Shown piece by piece: positions 6,467 through 15,377 of a stretch of DNA of 18,783 bases. The stretch is from Globomyces pollinis-pini (lineage: Eukaryota; Chytridiomycota; Chytridiomycetes; Rhizophydiales; Globomycetaceae), in the NCBI GenBank assembly GCA_025399215.1, contig MU621414.1, positions 1 through 18,783 on the forward strand, given 5' to 3'. The notes beneath the pieces were generated by a model. The model did no database searches. It saw nothing but the letters and a program-made list of their open reading frames with translations, and was not told where the DNA came from. How positions within the stretch are numbered: the stretch's first letter is position 1; each line of letters starts with the position of its first letter. The position numbers and the translations under genes are program-made.

Positions 6467-8520
6467 TCACAGGTCAAAACAATTATTGTCTCCAACAAGA
6501 GAAATTGGATCATGATTAACACACCAACCATCTACAATGAATTTATATTCTTGATATCCTTTGCCAAACGATTTGGTAGCTTCAAAATATTTTCCATTCC
6601 ATTCCAATGGTAATTCTTCCACCCAATCATCCCAAGATCCCTTTACCACCACAGTTTGGGCTGGGTGGAGCCATGAAAACACAAACTGTATCGATGAGTC
6701 CGGATTCTCCGATAACTGAGGTGGGGTCTCATCTTCGGTGATTGAGCTTGTAACGCTCGTTGATTCCTTACGATATGAAGCTTCCAGTACAACCTCCATA
6801 TCTCCACTTTCGTTAGCATCACCTATTGCGATGATGCCAAGCTCCTTTGCTTGCAAAAGAAAGTCTTCAAATACAGAAAATCCATGTCTACAATGAATTC
6901 CACGACACTGATCTTTTATCTGTTGACTATTCATTACCACTCCGTTTCTATTAAGGAATTGAATCAATTCCTGAAAGTCGGAGACTTGGTATTCCATGTG
7001 GTTGGATTTCAACTTCACTAAAATATTACCATTTGGATCCGATTTGTTCATCAGAAGCACAATACCTGCAGCTTCTGCGGCAAATATATAGAGTTTCAGA
7101 CTTTGAAATCCTGCAGCCAGATATTCCGATTTTATTTTGGAGCTAGAACCAATACTAGAGGTTGTAACAGGTTCTTTTCGGATATCATCTCTTGTTAAGT
7201 ACGCAATTAAATGACTATATGGATTACTTGTCACATTGGAATGTAGTAGAATGCTTGGGACAAACCGCCGGCATAACCGCACGACCATATTCCCATTTCC
7301 CAATATTTCCATCACTTTGATGACTCCGGAATGCTCAGCAGAATCCAAATATGCTTTCATACTTGGGTACCCATAATTCCGGAATATACCCCTTGTAATC
7401 GGGTGTATGCCTATTTCTCTAATGCTTAGCGTTTGTCTTGGAGCTTCATTCAGTACTTGAATAAGTAATTTGAAATCTTCTTTAACGCTTTGTGATTTAA
7501 CGGAGTTTAAAGTAACTACCATGTGATTCGACTGGTTTCTTGATAGTGCAACTACCCGTTTTTCAACTGCAGCATCAATATACTCTTTCATTGTCTTAAA
7601 ACCATGACGGGAATAAACACCCTGAGTGACTGGATATTCACCGATGATGGACAACAATGCACTAGTCTGTTGCGTTTCGACAAAATACTTTCGTAAATCG
7701 TCAAATTGTCTAATTGAGTCTTTCGAATTTTGTCTCGTTAAATCTCCTTTTAGGTTAGACAAAAAGATACGCACCGTATTTGTCTGAGACATTCCTTGTA
7801 GGCTTTTTGATGACTTCAACTACGGATTTTGCTTGATAGTCTTCATTTGATGTTCTATATGAAAGTTTTTTGTTGTCAATGTTTTGACGTTCAAAGGGTT
7901 CCAAATCCACGGACCCTGGAGATGTTTGTGATGCAGTTTGGCTTTCAGCCGAGTTTTTTATAAGAGGCATACTAGTTCCACACAATTCAAGCCAAGGAAT
8001 AGTTTCACTGACAGAATGTCGTAATACCTCTGAAATGACAGGAGAATGGATTAGCACCACATTATACTGGACTGACTCCAAGAAACTTAAAACCTTTGAA
8101 AAGTCTCGATCTCCAGTTACCAGAAAAATGTTGTGAGGTGGTCTGTTGAAATAAGAGTACTTCCACAGCTCCATTATAATAGCGATATCTGCAGCATTTG
8201 ACTTATTTGAAGCAACATAAATTGCACTGTTAATCTTGCCAACACCTTCTTGAATTTAATCACCATTTTATGCTAGTAGTAATCAAATTTACCACCACGG
8301 TCCAATATTGCAGCGATTTGGAAATAGTAAACTTTTCATTATTTATACAGTTAGTCTTTATATGGTAAATGGCTACTAGACGCGTCTTTAGATTTGTAAG
8401 CAAACTAAACTTTTGTATAGCGTTCAATAAAAGTACTGACTGATGCACTACATAGACTGGATCAAATGGCAAGCGATCATGCATAATTTGTAATTCATAA
8501 TTTGACGAATTCTTAATCAT
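6467..8520 (-). CDS. NYN nuclease-type domain + four LOTUS-like repeats + C-terminal AMPK-beta/CBM48 domain
   Basis: Likely RNA-directed protein with an unusual domain set. Secure minus-strand exons are 8331-8293, 8248-7775 and 7746-6467, joined by 44-nt and 28-nt introns; the junctions restore one frame. The NYN (MARF1/limkain-like, PIN-fold) part shows YYFQIAAILDRG, KINSAIYVASNKSNAADIAI and LVTGDRDFSKVLSFLESV, with the acidic residues expected of the nuclease site. Four repeats follow, recognisable from RHGFKTMKEYIDAA, NYGYPSMKAYLDSA, AAGFQSLKLYIFAA and RHGFSVFEDFLLQA; each fits a LOTUS/OST-HTH winged helix. The last 75 residues match an AMPK glycogen-binding domain: VVVKGSWDDW, YQEYKFIVDGW and DNNCF, with the sugar-contacting Trp, Lys, Trp and Asn kept. 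The N-terminal exon (8520 to about 8383, or ending near 8405) is uncertain: the splice into 8331 needs a weak donor, and the expected first NYN strand (WDxEN) is not clear. Confidence 0.78.
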
Positions 8521-8582
8521 TCCCGGTCCGACTGATTTTTTCCACTGACCTATTTATAGCTTACAATCCACTTCTATCAAAC
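8521..8582. promoter_or_regulatory. 62-bp divergent promoter with one TATA-like element
   Basis: The start codons of the NYN-LOTUS gene (minus) and the Rieske gene (plus) are only 62 bp apart. A single TATTTATA at 8551-8558 reads TATAAATA on the minus strand, a good TATA match pointing toward the NYN gene. It lies about 31 nt from either ATG, so 5' leaders must be extremely short, or the true NYN start is further downstream (for example the in-frame ATG near 8484). Confidence 0.5.
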
Positions 8583-9791
8583 ATGACCGAGCAAAGTAAA
8601 TTTCAACTCAAAGCTGATCTCAATCTAAAGGAATATTGGTATCCAATTTCACTAGTGGAGCATATAAAGGATAAACCGATAGGCCTTCATATTTTGGGTG
8701 AACCAATTGTATTGTTCAAGTCAAACAATGGGATAGTCTGCTTAGCTGATAAATGCGCTCATAGATCTGCACCTCTCTCAGTCGGACAAGTGTTGAATGG
8801 AAATTTAGAGTGTTTATATCATGGTTGGCAATATGATTCAGATGGGAACGTAGTCGAAATCCCTGCAAAGCTTCCCGAAAAAGGAATCCCTTCCAGTGCA
8901 AAGTCTAAAAAATTTCCTTTAGTTATAAAGGACGGTTTGGTTTGGATCTACCCTGGAAAGAAGTCAAATGAAGCAAAAGTACCTGACCTACATCCTGGTA
9001 ATCACGCTCCTGGATTTGGAAAACCATTTGCTAGAGTAACAGATTTGGATATCGATCATTCATTGATGGTGGAGAACCTTTTGGATCCTGCCCATTTACC
9101 ATTTACACACAATGGGACTCTGTCTAACAGGTCAAAAGTATCCCCCATGACTTTAGATTTGCAATTTGGCGAAGGGAACTTATTTATGTTTGGTGATAAT
9201 GTCATAACCAAAAGTCCTAACCAGAAAACACGGTTTTATTTTTATCCTCCTTGTCATGTCCTTTTGGAAGCTGAAATCATACCTGGCTGGAAAATGGTTC
9301 AATCCATGCACTGTGTACCAATCAGACCTGGTCATATGAGATTGGTCTTCCTTCAAGGCAGAAATTTCTTCAACTGGTATGTGCCTGGACTGGAAGCTTA
9401 CTTGACATCATTTTCTGACAAAATTGTTTTTCAAGACTATGAAATGTTGCATGGTCAGCAATTGCGCTTGCAACAAAAAGCCAACCCATGGAACTCTACC
9501 ATTGCTGTGGATATTATGCCTAAAACTTACCGTAATTGGTTCAAGAAAACTCGCGGTTGGTTTGCAGGATATGGTGATATTGAAGATATGAATACTGATG
9601 GTTGTACTGGTTGCGGAGATACTGATAGCTACGACGAATATCGCTATACCAGACAAGAAGGAGTGAACTATACTTGCTATGAACTGAACAAACCTAAAGA
9701 TTATTCTTTGGTTTCATCAAAGCAATTGATTTTGGCTGTTTCTATCGGTATCATTGGCGTATTTGTTGGTTTGAAGTATTTAAAAGCTTAA
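8583..9791 (+). CDS. Rieske non-heme iron oxygenase, PAO/TIC55/PTC52-like, C-terminal membrane anchor
   Basis: Intronless gene for 402 residues. The N-terminal Rieske domain binds a 2Fe-2S cluster through Cys58, His60, Cys77 and His80 (CAHR and CLYHGW). The catalytic domain has the mononuclear iron motif N165-x2-D168-x2-H171-x4-H176 in ENLLDPAHLPFTH, and Asp285 is a candidate third ligand. A CTGC pair at 341-344 recalls the C-terminal CxxC described for PAO, TIC55 and PTC52, and a hydrophobic segment at about 382-398 ends the protein as a tail anchor. The family oxygenates chlorophyll breakdown products in plants and algae and other hydrophobic substrates elsewhere; electrons normally come from ferredoxin or a reductase. 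No plastid transit peptide is visible, so the substrate here is unknown. The gene shares a tiny divergent promoter with the NYN gene and lies 199 nt upstream of a receptor gene on the same strand. Confidence 0.9.
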   Translation: MTEQSKFQLKADLNLKEYWYPISLVEHIKDKPIGLHILGEPIVLFKSNNGIVCLADKCAHRSAPLSVGQVLNGNLECLYHGWQYDSDGNVVEIPAKLPEKGIPSSAKSKKFPLVIKDGLVWIYPGKKSNEAKVPDLHPGNHAPGFGKPFARVTDLDIDHSLMVENLLDPAHLPFTHNGTLSNRSKVSPMTLDLQFGEGNLFMFGDNVITKSPNQKTRFYFYPPCHVLLEAEIIPGWKMVQSMHCVPIRPGHMRLVFLQGRNFFNWYVPGLEAYLTSFSDKIVFQDYEMLHGQQLRLQQKANPWNSTIAVDIMPKTYRNWFKKTRGWFAGYGDIEDMNTDGCTGCGDTDSYDEYRYTRQEGVNYTCYELNKPKDYSLVSSKQLILAVSIGIIGVFVGLKYLKA

Positions 9792-9849
9792 ATTGGTTAC
9801 TTTTTCCATGATTATTACCATTTACGTTTTTCCACAGATTTTCTTAAAC

Positions 9850-9855
9850 AATAAA
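9850..9855 (+). terminator. Polyadenylation signal AATAAA for the Rieske gene
   Basis: AATAAA 59 nt after the Rieske stop codon and 135 nt before the next start on the same strand, supporting separate transcripts. Confidence 0.5.
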
Positions 9856-9990
9856 AACAATAATCTCATTTGTTGCGATTTTCAAATTGTATTTTTATGA
9901 AAGACACATTTTATGGACCGTTTTTTACCAACTAGTAGTTGTGTTTGTTGAGTAGAAACGCGAAATTTTGATCATTTATTTATTAAAAAT

Positions 9991-12519
9991 ATGAAGTTGA
10001 TAGCAATAGCGACTCTCTTCAACTATTTCTGTGTTGCACTCCATCCTGATGGCACAAAGAAAATTAAAATTGGTATTAGTCTTGGATTCGGACCGGAGGG
10101 AAGCAACATTTTAGATGGAGCTCAAGCTGCTTTTCTGCGAATAAAACAACTCAATGAAATTTCACCCATTCTTGGTGACGATGTAGCTTTGGAACCAGTA
10201 TTTTTAAACCACAAAGTTTCTCGTGATATAACAATTGTAAATGCACTGGAATTTCAAAAACAAGGAGTTGTAGCAGTGGTCGGATCTGGGCATAGTTCCT
10301 TATCAATTTTAACATCTTTAGTCCTACAGAACTATAAAATTCCTCAATGTTGTGGTTCATCAACGAATCCTAGTTTGTCGGATAAAAAGCAGTATCCAAA
10401 CTTCTTTCGCGTGATTCCAACTGATGCTTCACAAACTGCTGCTATGATGGGATATGTTGTTGCCTCTGGTTGGAAAAAGATTGCAATTATTAATACAAAT
10501 GAGGATTATGGTGGTGGATTGGCTAATTACCTTACCAATCTTGCTCGCGAAAATTCTGTTCAAGTATTAGCAAAAGTTAACGTCAAAATTGGTGTTACTG
10601 CTGAAGAAGCAAAACCGGCTGTACAAACTGTTCAAGAGTCAGGTGCCAGGATTATTTTCTTTTTTGGGTATAATGAAGAATTGTTGGTTGTTCTGAAACT
10701 AGCAAAAGAGCTGGGAATTTTTGGGAAGGATTATGTGTGGTTCGGTGCCGATGCTCTTTACGATTTTGCAGCAGCGTACCCTGCCGAAGGTAATATATAC
10801 AATGGATTATTGATATTCTACCCACGAGAGGCTGCCGGACCAGAAGCTGAGCCATTCGCCAAATACTGGAAAGAAAATTACGAGATTTCTGGCTTTCCAA
10901 ACATTTCTATGGCAGCAACAGAAGCAACCAAGTCATATGCCTACTTTTTCCCCAGTTGCATTGACTTATTCCTACACGGATTCGACTCTTTACTAAAGTC
11001 TGATAGCTCATTCACAATTGATGATTTAATATCTGGCAAACTAAACAAAAACATGAAAATTCCAGATTCATTTGCCTTCCCTGAAGTTGCCACACCCAGT
11101 GGATATGTCCGCACAGACAGAAATGGTGATCGACTAGGAGACTTTGACATTTACAACTTTCTATCGGATGGTTCGCGAAAATTAGTTGGAGGTTGGAATA
11201 ATGGTCAAAAAGTTTTGGACCCAAACACGCCCATTTTATATCCAGGCGGTATTCTTGTTCAGCCAAAAGACGGAATCGATCCAAATGATGTTGCACTTTA
11301 TGCATCTGCCTCATCTGGTCTATCAAAGCTATCATTGGGGTTTGGGTTTATTGGCACTCTCACCACACTCGTTTCCTTACTGGCGGTCTTAAAGTACAGG
11401 AATACAAAAGCGTTACGCCAAGCCGGAGTAACGATTGGTATTACGATGCAGATTTGTTTGCTTCTCGCGAACTCTCAATTCTTGCTTATGATTGATAAGC
11501 CAACGCCTGTAAAATGCACCATTGATTCTTTTGTAATTCCTGTACTTTTTTCCTTCTATTATGGATTACTTTTCGCCAAAAACCTTCGTATCTATAGAAT
11601 ATTTTACTATCCTTTAACCAAGAAGTTCTTAAATCAAAATTTTGTCTATTTTCTAGCATTCATGTTTACGTTGCCTTCTGGGGTTACATCTATTATTTGG
11701 AACGTATTCGATCCACCAATACCAACCATTGTTTCCCCATTTCAAAATCAATACTATTGGACTTGTAAAAGCGCCAGAGGGATGGAAAGTATTGCGATCG
11801 GCATCCACATCATCTTGAATACTCTTGTGTTAGTTGCCAATTTGGGGATGGCTTTCATGACACGAAACGTAGTGTCCACCTATAGCGAAACGAAAATGAT
11901 TGGTTTATCGGTGTACAATATGACTGTAATCTCTATCTTTGATATTGTGATGCTAAGCTCAGAGAGCCTTGGATTCAATGCCAAGTATTTGGTAAAAACA
12001 ATTTCAATACTGTATGTTATATTGTTCAATTTAACTACAACATTTCTGTACAAAGTTTATCAAGTCCACACCGATGCAAAACTTTCAAGCACAATCTCTA
12101 ATGTTGAGAAACCGAAACCTGTAGCTATTGTGAACAAAGATGGAAATGTAGTGGAGTCATTAGTCTCAGTCACTGAAGTTGGTCGATATATGAACCAGTC
12201 TTATGAAGGTCTTTTTAGAGTTATGTCACCAGATTGTGCAATGATATTTAAAAGGAAAAAAACATCCCTGGAATCTCAAATAACAAAGGATGATGGGTTT
12301 GGAACTGGCTGGTTTGTATCCAAGTTGACCAAATTTGCATGCATGGAACGAAGTCCTTTAATTCATCGATTTTATATTGATGAAAAAACATACGATATAA
12401 AGTATCAGACGGCCGAAGAAACTGCAATTTGGACACAATTCTTTAAAAGCTGGAGCTATCGCGTTCAACCTGATAATATGTCTGTTTCGTCACCTTCCAA
12501 GCAATTATCAGTTATCTAA
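9991..12519 (+). CDS. Class C GPCR, GABA-B-like: LivJ-type ligand domain, 7TM, PH-like tail (copy 1)
   Basis: Intronless gene for 842 residues. A hydrophobic signal sequence (about 1-17) is followed by a type 1 periplasmic-binding fold (about 24-435) with IKIGISLGFGPEGSNILDGA, FQKQGVVAVVGSG and GWKKIAIINTNEDYG. Seven membrane segments follow at about 446-468, 477-500, 510-535, 551-571, 600-623, 637-658 and 665-691. LLFAKNLRIYRIF is the class C second-loop signature. Cys509 and the Cys in YYWTCKS fit the conserved TM3-loop disulfide. There is no cysteine-rich linker, as in GABA-B receptors and unlike glutamate receptors. The cytoplasmic tail (about 735-826) has a beta-rich stretch ending in an acidic helix with an invariant-looking Trp (EETAIWTQFFKSW), suggesting a PH fold. 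The ligand is unknown; an amino acid or similar small molecule is likely from the fold. The stop codon lies inside a 25-bp tandem duplication. Confidence 0.93.
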   Translation: MKLIAIATLFNYFCVALHPDGTKKIKIGISLGFGPEGSNILDGAQAAFLRIKQLNEISPILGDDVALEPVFLNHKVSRDITIVNALEFQKQGVVAVVGSGHSSLSILTSLVLQNYKIPQCCGSSTNPSLSDKKQYPNFFRVIPTDASQTAAMMGYVVASGWKKIAIINTNEDYGGGLANYLTNLARENSVQVLAKVNVKIGVTAEEAKPAVQTVQESGARIIFFFGYNEELLVVLKLAKELGIFGKDYVWFGADALYDFAAAYPAEGNIYNGLLIFYPREAAGPEAEPFAKYWKENYEISGFPNISMAATEATKSYAYFFPSCIDLFLHGFDSLLKSDSSFTIDDLISGKLNKNMKIPDSFAFPEVATPSGYVRTDRNGDRLGDFDIYNFLSDGSRKLVGGWNNGQKVLDPNTPILYPGGILVQPKDGIDPNDVALYASASSGLSKLSLGFGFIGTLTTLVSLLAVLKYRNTKALRQAGVTIGITMQICLLLANSQFLLMIDKPTPVKCTIDSFVIPVLFSFYYGLLFAKNLRIYRIFYYPLTKKFLNQNFVYFLAFMFTLPSGVTSIIWNVFDPPIPTIVSPFQNQYYWTCKSARGMESIAIGIHIILNTLVLVANLGMAFMTRNVVSTYSETKMIGLSVYNMTVISIFDIVMLSSESLGFNAKYLVKTISILYVILFNLTTTFLYKVYQVHTDAKLSSTISNVEKPKPVAIVNKDGNVVESLVSVTEVGRYMNQSYEGLFRVMSPDCAMIFKRKKTSLESQITKDDGFGTGWFVSKLTKFACMERSPLIHRFYIDEKTYDIKYQTAEETAIWTQFFKSWSYRVQPDNMSVSSPSKQLSVI

Positions 12520-12545
12520 TTCCAAGCAATTATCAGTTATCTAAT
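12496..12545 (+). repeat. Perfect tandem duplication, 2 x 25 bp, spanning the stop codon of receptor copy 1
   Basis: The 25 bases at 12496-12520 are repeated exactly at 12521-12545, and two more bases continue the match. The first copy contains codons for the last residues (KQLSVI) and the TAA; the second lies wholly in the 3' UTR. The unit is not a multiple of three. Exact identity suggests a recent slippage or duplication. Confidence 0.97.
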
Positions 12546-12572
12546 TCTGCTTTTGCGCTCAGTAGTTTTCAT

Positions 12573-12836: not shown

Positions 12837-15377
12837 CTACATATTGGTACTAGCTTGCTGAGAGGTGGCAGCACTGACACGATAAGACCAGTTTTCAAAG
12901 TATTTTGACCAAATTTTACAGTCTTCTTCGTTCTTGAATTTGCATTCAAACACATTTTCTTCAACTGTTACATGGCGAATATTGGTGCCCTTTTCAACGA
13001 ACGAAAAGTTTGACAAATTCTTTAAATGCCAACAAGTACCATAACCCGAATCTTTGGTAGCAGCAGATTCTAATGAAAGCTTTTTAATGTCAAACACCAA
13101 GACACTGTCAGTAGAAGTTTGGGTTAAAACAACATTCTTTGCTTCTCCAAAAATACTGTTCAAACCTCCAAGTTTTCTAAGTGTTACTTCACAACGGTTA
13201 GGGTTTCCTCCCTTGTTAGCTTGTTCAATCTTCTTTTCTTGAGCAATAACACTTGAGTTTTGGGAAGAGCCTTTGGAGTTTGGTGTTTCGGAACTAGTAA
13301 CGGCTTGGTAGATCTTAAAGAGGAAAGAGGTTCCAACATTGAACATCAAGATATAGAATACTGCCAATAACTTGATGATGTATTTTGCAGTAAACCCAAG
13401 AGAGTCTGAGACAAGAATAGCCATACTAAATAAAGAAATAATCGTCATGTTGTAAACGGACAATCCAATCATTTTTGTTTCGTTGTAGGTAGACATAACA
13501 TTTCGAGTCATCACCGCCATATAAAGGTTTGCAACCAAAACAAGAGCATTCACAATGATTAGAAGATTAATTGCAGTTGCTTGTAAGCCATTAGGACTTT
13601 TGCAGGTCCAGTAGTATTGAGTTAAAGATACTTTCACGATGGTAGGAACAGGGGCATCGACAGCATTCCAAATAGCGGAAATCACAACAGAAGGAATAGT
13701 AATCAAGAAAGCAATGACATAAATTTTAAAGTCTGTTAATTTCAAAGTGGCTCTTGGTTTGTAGAAGATTCTGTAGATACGAAGGTTCTTGGCAAACAGC
13801 AAACCATAGTAGAAAGAAAAGAGTACAGGAATCACAAAAGTATCAATAGTGCATTTTGAATTCGTAGGCTTGTCAATCATAATCAAGAATTGAATATTCA
13901 CCAATAGTAAACAGAGTTGCATACCATAACCTACAATCATACTTGATTTCTTGATAACCCCAACAAGTCGATACTTCATAACACCCAAAACGGATACCAA
14001 AGAGACGAGAGCACCGATAATTGCAAAGACAACAGAGAGAATCGCCAAACCACTTGAAGGAGCAGCGTACAGAGCAACGTCGTTTGGATCAATTCCATCT
14101 TTCGGTTGAACGAGACTGCCACCCATATATATAATCGGTGAGTTTGGATCCAACACTTTTTTACCATCATTCCAGCCCCCAACTAAGTGTCTGGTACCAT
14201 CAGCACGGAAGTTAAAAATATCGTAATCACCAATTCTGTCTCCATTTGCATCATTTTTGACGTATCCACTAGGTGTAGCAACTTCAGGGAACATAAAGGA
14301 TTCTGGTACTTTCATCACTTTGTTCAATTTGCCATCAATAAGGTCGTCAATTGTATAAGTACTATTTGATTTCAATAGTTTGTCAAATCCATTAAGGAAT
14401 AAATCAACACAACTGGCATACAAGTAAACAAATGATTTGGTTGCGGTAGTTGCAGTTATGTTCCAATTTGGGAAGGTAGTTAATTCACGATTTTGCACCC
14501 AATAATCCGCAAACGGTTGAGCTTCGGGGCCCGCTGCTTCTCTAGGATAAAAGCTTATTAGCCCACCATAGATTGGAGCCATTGATGGATTAAACAGATG
14601 AAGGTCATACATAGAATCAGAAGCCATCCACACATAGTCCTTTTGCATGATTCCTAACTCGTTGGCTATTGGGATGATAACAGAAAGCTCTTCAACGTAC
14701 CCACAATAAATGATAATTCTTGCGCCAGACTCTTGAACGGTTTGAACTTGTGGTTTTGCTTCGGCAGCAGTAACACCAATTTTTACATTAACTTTGGCCA
14801 AAATTTCAATAGAGCTTGTACGGGCAAGATTGGTAATATAGTTAGCCAACCCGCTTCCATAGTCTTCGTTTGTATGGATAATGGCAATCTTCTTCCATCC
14901 AGAAGCAATAGCATATCCAACCATGGCTTCAGCTTGAGACGCATCTGTTGGCATCGCACGGAAGAAGTTCGGATACTGTTTCTTATCCGACAGACTGGGG
15001 TTAGAAGAAGACCCACAACATTGAGGAATTTTATAATTTTGCAATACCAAAGACGTTAAAATAGACAATGAACTGTATCCAGAACCTACTACAGCAACGA
15101 CACCTTGTTTTTGGAATTCCAATGAGTTCACAATAGTTTTATCACGCATAGTCTCATGGTTGAGAAACACAGGTTCCAAAGCGACGTTATTTCCAAGAAG
15201 AGTAGACTTTTCATTCATTTGCTTGATACGTAAATGAATGGAAAGAGCGGCATCCAAGAGAATTCCACCGTCTGGACCATAACCCATACTGATACCAATC
15301 TTGAGTTTCTTCGTACCTGCCGGATTTAAACCATAGGCTAGTGAGAGCAGTGTTGACAGCAACAACGTTACTCGCAT
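12837..15377 (-). CDS. Class C GPCR, GABA-B-like: LivJ-type ligand domain, 7TM, PH-like tail (copy 2)
   Basis: Intronless paralog of the neighbouring plus-strand receptor, 846 residues, lying tail to tail with it. A clear signal peptide (about 1-16, MRVTLLLSTLLSLAYG) leads into the same periplasmic-binding fold, and long blocks are near identical, for example LEFQKQGVVAVVGSG, LQNYKIPQCCGSS and FVIPVLFSFYYGLLFAKN. The seven membrane segments and the YYWTCKS cysteine are kept. Differences concentrate in the hinge region after KDYVW (YDLHLFNPSM here, YDFAAAYPAE in copy 1), in TM2, and in the tail. The tail linker is S/N/Q-rich, then a PH-like block ends in EEDCKIWSKYFENW. Divergence in the ligand domain and tail suggests different ligands or partners, or an obligate heterodimer as in GABA-B1/B2; neither can be decided from sequence. 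The ATG is followed directly by the signal peptide, supporting this start. Confidence 0.93.
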   Translation of the reverse strand: MRVTLLLSTLLSLAYGLNPAGTKKLKIGISMGYGPDGGILLDAALSIHLRIKQMNEKSTLLGNNVALEPVFLNHETMRDKTIVNSLEFQKQGVVAVVGSGYSSLSILTSLVLQNYKIPQCCGSSSNPSLSDKKQYPNFFRAMPTDASQAEAMVGYAIASGWKKIAIIHTNEDYGSGLANYITNLARTSSIEILAKVNVKIGVTAAEAKPQVQTVQESGARIIIYCGYVEELSVIIPIANELGIMQKDYVWMASDSMYDLHLFNPSMAPIYGGLISFYPREAAGPEAQPFADYWVQNRELTTFPNWNITATTATKSFVYLYASCVDLFLNGFDKLLKSNSTYTIDDLIDGKLNKVMKVPESFMFPEVATPSGYVKNDANGDRIGDYDIFNFRADGTRHLVGGWNDGKKVLDPNSPIIYMGGSLVQPKDGIDPNDVALYAAPSSGLAILSVVFAIIGALVSLVSVLGVMKYRLVGVIKKSSMIVGYGMQLCLLLVNIQFLIMIDKPTNSKCTIDTFVIPVLFSFYYGLLFAKNLRIYRIFYKPRATLKLTDFKIYVIAFLITIPSVVISAIWNAVDAPVPTIVKVSLTQYYWTCKSPNGLQATAINLLIIVNALVLVANLYMAVMTRNVMSTYNETKMIGLSVYNMTIISLFSMAILVSDSLGFTAKYIIKLLAVFYILMFNVGTSFLFKIYQAVTSSETPNSKGSSQNSSVIAQEKKIEQANKGGNPNRCEVTLRKLGGLNSIFGEAKNVVLTQTSTDSVLVFDIKKLSLESAATKDSGYGTCWHLKNLSNFSFVEKGTNIRHVTVEENVFECKFKNEEDCKIWSKYFENWSYRVSAATSQQASTNM

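Follow-up and report, generated by a model that had tools for sequence, protein, structure and literature searches.

The NYN-CBM48 fusion and its conservation

Contig C325 (MU621414.1, 18,783 nucleotides) of the Globomyces pollinis-pini assembly (18.5 Mb, 459 contigs), analysed here over its whole length and called the window, harbours a gene on the minus strand, at about 6467-8234, that combines three kinds of domain. Its product comprises four copies of one winged-helix repeat, preceded by the C-terminal half of a MARF1-type NYN domain and followed by an AMPK-beta-type CBM48. Globomyces belongs to the chytrid order Rhizophydiales. On balance, the comparisons below incline us to read the family as a chytrid version of the MARF1/DNE1-type endoribonucleases, equipped with a putative glycogen anchor. 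An earlier note, made from the letters of this DNA without database searches, was aware of no described protein with this combination, and our searches of the open-licence literature found no publication on an NYN-CBM48 protein.

Three protein searches gave 46 protein ids, and Pfam detected both NYN and AMPK1_CBM in ten of them (P0002-P0006, P0013, and P0015-P0018). Each search scored only about 8000 candidates sharing most words; one of them did not list P0005, although this protein was part of its query alignment, and therefore overlooks some members. The named carriers of the fusion are Boothiomyces (Rhizophydiales), and Entophlyctis, Physocladia, Chytriomyces, and Siphonaria (Chytridiales), and the Siphonaria record carries the label UNVERIFIED_CONTAM from its source. 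P0005 is a JGI protein, and P0015-P0018 derive from Logan and JGI. The latter four possess NYN, one repeat, OHA and CBM48, which is a second form of the same fusion with a different middle. NYN, CBM48 and at least one repeat occur together in P0002-P0006 and P0015-P0018, and no repeat was detected in P0013. The model P0008 (Boothiomyces JEL0838) has the CBM48 but no more of NYN than its start, and P0009 (Terramyces) contains repeats and lacks both ends, NYN and CBM48.

Judged from these sequences, the fusion does not stem from an error in the gene model of this locus. Several members come from automatic annotation, as expected if annotation had merged two adjacent genes, but the same domain order recurs in chytrids of two orders and in another group, there on short contigs, and in the window the CBM48 and the four repeats lie in one open frame; we regard such a merger as highly improbable. 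The CBM48 was also considered as a chance neighbour, which was rejected on the shared frame and on the recurrence of the fusion in other proteins. In the NYN tree, drawn open, P0015-P0018 stand apart from the chytrids (88/100), on the side of the plant and Ustilago NYN domains, and this topology may be compatible with a single origin of the fusion. In the CBM48 tree, the modules of P0015-P0018 form a group (83/83) that also takes in AMPK-beta-2 and a CBM from Globomyces contig C165, and the tree does not decide between one fusion and two.

A single open frame of 450 codons (7819-6467, minus strand) holds all four repeats and the CBM48. The features of the gene are the following, all on the minus strand:

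6467-7746, minus: last coding exon, with the four repeats, the CBM48 and the stop codon (6467-6469), within the open frame 7819-6467; its 5' boundary is set by the 28-nt intron, also used in P0001
6470-6688, minus: AMPK-beta-type CBM48 (glycogen-recognition module)
6791-6979, minus: feature inside the four-repeat exon
7016-7222, minus: repeat 3 (repeat profile i-Evalue 8.5e-17; helices and wing in the model)
7280-7477, minus: feature inside the four-repeat exon
7514-7708, minus: repeat 1 (repeat profile i-Evalue 6.8e-17; helices and wing in the model)
7747-7774, minus: 28-nt intron GTGCGT...CTAAC...AAAG, the sole junction candidate in the consensus scan, restoring the frame
7775-8234, minus: exon with the NYN C-terminal half (SNAADIAI, VTGDRDF) and linker; Pfam NYN at 7995-8216, 5' edge a guess
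8293-8520, minus: upstream open frame, taken as the N-terminus in the earlier note; its membership of the gene is unproven and the intron 8292-8235 is a guess

The best database match is the public model of this locus, P0001 (325 aa, hypothetical protein, Globomyces pollinis-pini), with 100% identity over 52% of the query. P0001 starts at 8174 and splices at the same 28-nt intron (KYG to DLTRQN). It also has an extra intron after the second repeat, and its final residues match another frame; therefore it lacks the CBM48 together with repeats 3 and 4, and the CBM48 of this locus is hidden by the public gene model.

NYN domain, repeats and sugar site

The NYN core proposed in the earlier note was found in its C-terminal half, with SNAADIAI and VTGDRDF. 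The Pfam match is over the cut-off (2.9e-9), yet covers only profile positions 72-143 of 145. A complete NYN domain (PF01936) with WDxEN, AAD and GDRD was not found in the window copy, which keeps the (A/S)(A/S)D and GDRDF motifs only; all ten NYN-CBM48 orthologues possess WDxEN, (A/S)(A/S)D and GDRDF. The C-terminal half is 60-62% identical to those of Physocladia and Chytriomyces, with 62% identity to Chytriomyces P0006 over 8198-7965. The active site of MARF1 consists of Asp358, 426, 427 and 452 (PMC6294520). The N-terminal half, with the first catalytic Asp, was undetectable in the window copy, and is present in the orthologues and in a second Globomyces copy.

The frame starting at 8520, offered in the earlier note as the beginning of the protein, was rejected as a normal NYN N-terminus, the chytrid NYN profile scoring 114.4 bits with this frame versus 115.3 without it. 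When the frame was shuffled, 318 of 1000 shuffles scored as high. Neither a WD nor a DxEN/H motif was seen when the minus-strand frames were scanned over 8200-10500, and when the N-terminal 110 residues of P0001-P0007 were compared with 8200-8900 by tblastn, no match was better than E 0.05. In favour of the frame, tblastn placed two very weak pieces in it and in the correct order (P0003, E 1.3; P0004, E 16). The window sequence is free of N bases.

A repeat profile was built iteratively from seven repeats and trained on P0002-P0006 among others. It recovered all four window repeats. Two to six repeats were detected in each of the training proteins P0002-P0006 (i-Evalues under 1e-8), one in each of P0015-P0019 (8.2e-8 to 9.6e-10), one in P0021 (1e-5), two in P0014 (2.1e-5 and 0.0047), and a weak one in P0046. 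The profile had no match in six plant NYN proteins, and 510 shuffled sequences used as a control gave two matches, with E 11 and 14. Two NYN proteins of the basidiomycete Ustilago, P0022 and P0024, contain weak repeat copies (best 1.1e-3), so that the pairing of NYN with repeats of this winged-helix kind might be a general fungal feature.

According to the structure models, which contain helices and a wing, the window repeats are winged helices, and one repeat model resembles the LOTUS domain of mouse MARF1. The LOTUS-like character claimed in the earlier note may hold for the predicted fold, and was not recovered by sequence. No Pfam family was convincingly matched by the window repeats (best E 0.02); the OST-HTH profile (PF12872) matched one of 24 repeats (E 0.079) and gave no candidate in the Globomyces genome search. 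Comparison by hhalign of the repeats with six plant OST-HTH segments gave 0.3%, the same value as a CBM control. No LOTUS domain was among the matches listed for the P0005 model (VIA list), a list filled by NYN and CBM.

These repeats could alternatively be translation-factor-like or DNA-binding winged helices and not RNA binders. The WH_eIF2D family (PF25304) matches the whole protein P0002 above its cut-off (1.2e-7, 32.3 bits, cut-off 27), and weakly matches seven of 24 single repeats (best 0.0021); eIF2D is the top weak PDB match of the repeats (E 0.34), and MarR-type matches were also obtained. WH_eIF2D had no match in the window protein, and the genome search with it found two Globomyces places (C57, and weakly C4) but missed the window locus. 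Moreover, a LOTUS domain, that of TDRD7, is next among the weak PDB matches (E 1.2), and NYN followed by tandem winged helices is the layout of MARF1 and DNE1. We consider this alternative unlikely.

The C-terminal CBM48 was correctly recognised in the earlier note, together with its sugar-contacting residues. AMPK1_CBM matches over the Pfam cut-off (1.5e-12), and the predicted fold is that of an AMPK-beta CBM. In AMPK-beta the sugar is contacted by Trp100, Lys126, Trp133 and Asn150, plus Leu146 and Thr148 (PMC9788615). Starch binding of PTST is abolished by mutating the equivalent Trp pair (PMC4339375). Equivalents of Leu146 and Thr148 are not retained in the aligned CBM48s. All four main contacts are retained in 11 of the 12 CBM48s aligned, including the window copy, the Asn150 column being placed on what we take to be the AMPK beta-2 tail; the exception, P0013, retains only the Trp100 equivalent and has lost those of Lys126, Trp133 and Asn150.

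Instead of binding glycogen, the module might be a protein-interaction or sensing part, with a MARF1-like RNase regulated via an AMPK-like or starch-enzyme-like complex. The absence of the Leu146 and Thr148 equivalents, the losses in P0013 and the variable length of the last loop in chytrid CBM48s point in this direction, but the retention of the main contacts in nearly all the modules argues against it, and we judge it rather improbable. The Globomyces genome also contains an intron-rich locus at C217:14844-15847 with three AMPK1_CBM matches, followed by a long low-complexity frame.

Status of the window copy and proposed function

Globomyces possesses a second NYN gene of the same family at C257:23403-23932, with an intact-looking start and the motifs METSTVFWDHENC...AAD...GDRDF, and a third NYN gene on contig C3. 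The C257 copy seems by eye to have very short introns and is cut off by the contig end. Because the N-terminal half is undetectable in the window copy and the NYN start of the C257 copy looks intact, the gene in the window is probably a diverged second copy in which the nuclease half does not work. With its repeats and CBM48 retained, it could serve as a glycogen-bound RNA binder without catalytic activity, or it may be decaying. That it is a decaying or truncated pseudogene, with the functional Globomyces gene on C257, is a serious possibility though not the one we expect, and it would be compatible with the reading of the family as glycogen-anchored RNases. It agrees with the missing NYN start upstream, with the NYN start, AAD and GDRDF on C257, and with the short public model of the window copy. 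On the other hand, 450 codons are free of stops, the NYN C-terminal half has kept its identity to Physocladia and Chytriomyces, and the sugar contacts are retained. No second repeat set was found elsewhere in the assembly, by searches that score best candidates only and ignore introns.

Proteins of the MARF1 kind control messenger RNA in animal eggs. MARF1 (Limkain b1) is an NYN endoribonuclease (PMC6294520), and the chytrid orthologues share with it NYN and tandem winged helices. However, the chytrid repeats are not recognised as OST-HTH, the window copy lacks the NYN N-terminal half, and CBM48 is absent from MARF1 as described in the accessible parts of PMC6294520 and PMC2848206. MARF1 orthologues are characterised by NYN, RRMs and multiple LOTUS domains; the Pfam scans detected no RRM, and the proteins scanned are not assigned to them. 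The plant protein DNE1, a cytoplasmic mRNA decay factor, possesses NYN and two C-terminal LOTUS domains, and CBM48 is not mentioned for it in the accessible text (PMC10226599); DNE1 is not present by name among the six plant NYN proteins in which the repeat profile was blank. Plant NYN-OHA proteins (PF14418, PF24620; e.g. P0027) have NYN and OHA in common with P0015-P0018, which additionally possess CBM48 and one chytrid-type repeat. AMPK-beta, SEX4 and PTST carry the same carbohydrate module, again with Lys, Asn and the pair of stacking Trp; in those proteins it works for a kinase, for a phosphatase or in the making of starch, whereas here it is located on an RNase-type protein.

LOTUS/OST-HTH proteins are thought to position RNA at cell structures via Tudor, lipid-binding or ankyrin anchors (PMC2848206, section 5). 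Neither fungi nor a carbohydrate anchor is named in that section, and words beginning with fung, glycogen or carbohydrate are absent from the main text. Glycogen binding by an RNase would add a new type of anchor.

That a predicted RNase family carries a glycogen-binding-like module suggests a possible tie between RNA destruction and the sugar store of the cell. In such a mechanism, the NYN domain would cut single-stranded RNA via its aspartate cluster, and the tandem winged helices would bind RNA or partner proteins and thereby choose the target. The C-terminal CBM48 would keep the protein on glycogen, and RNA decay would take place at the glycogen store or be set free from it. From its domain make-up, the family would be expected to act as an RNase, to bind RNA and glycogen, and to couple these functions. 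Chytrid zoospores contain dormant ribosomes with maternal mRNA, and in Rhizoclosmatium globosum glycogen takes up 5.5% of the volume of developing zoospores and 1.6% of that of free-swimming ones (PMC8887899). In these cells, which begin life with stored mRNA and consume glycogen, mRNA turnover might be coupled to the energy reserve. Eukaryotes beyond animals and plants would then have joined a glycogen-binding module to a MARF1-type RNase, once or more, and glycogen particles would be a platform for selective mRNA cleavage, with stored zoospore mRNA released or silenced as glycogen is depleted; this wider proposal is speculative and we hold it only tentatively. If true, RNA decay would be physically and directly linked to the carbohydrate reserve, and the link between glycogen and mRNA control would be testable in zoospores.

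Other genes of the window

A gene encoding a Rieske oxygenase of the pheophorbide a oxygenase/VanA type is located at 8517-9791 (plus strand); it points away from the NYN-CBM48 gene and is separated from it by little space. Two convergent, related class C GPCRs (ANF_receptor and 7tm_3) were found at 9952-12519 (plus strand) and 12837-15377 (minus strand), which we presume to be GABA-B-like. A perfect 25-bp tandem duplication at 12495-12547 repeats the last codons and the stop of the first GPCR gene.
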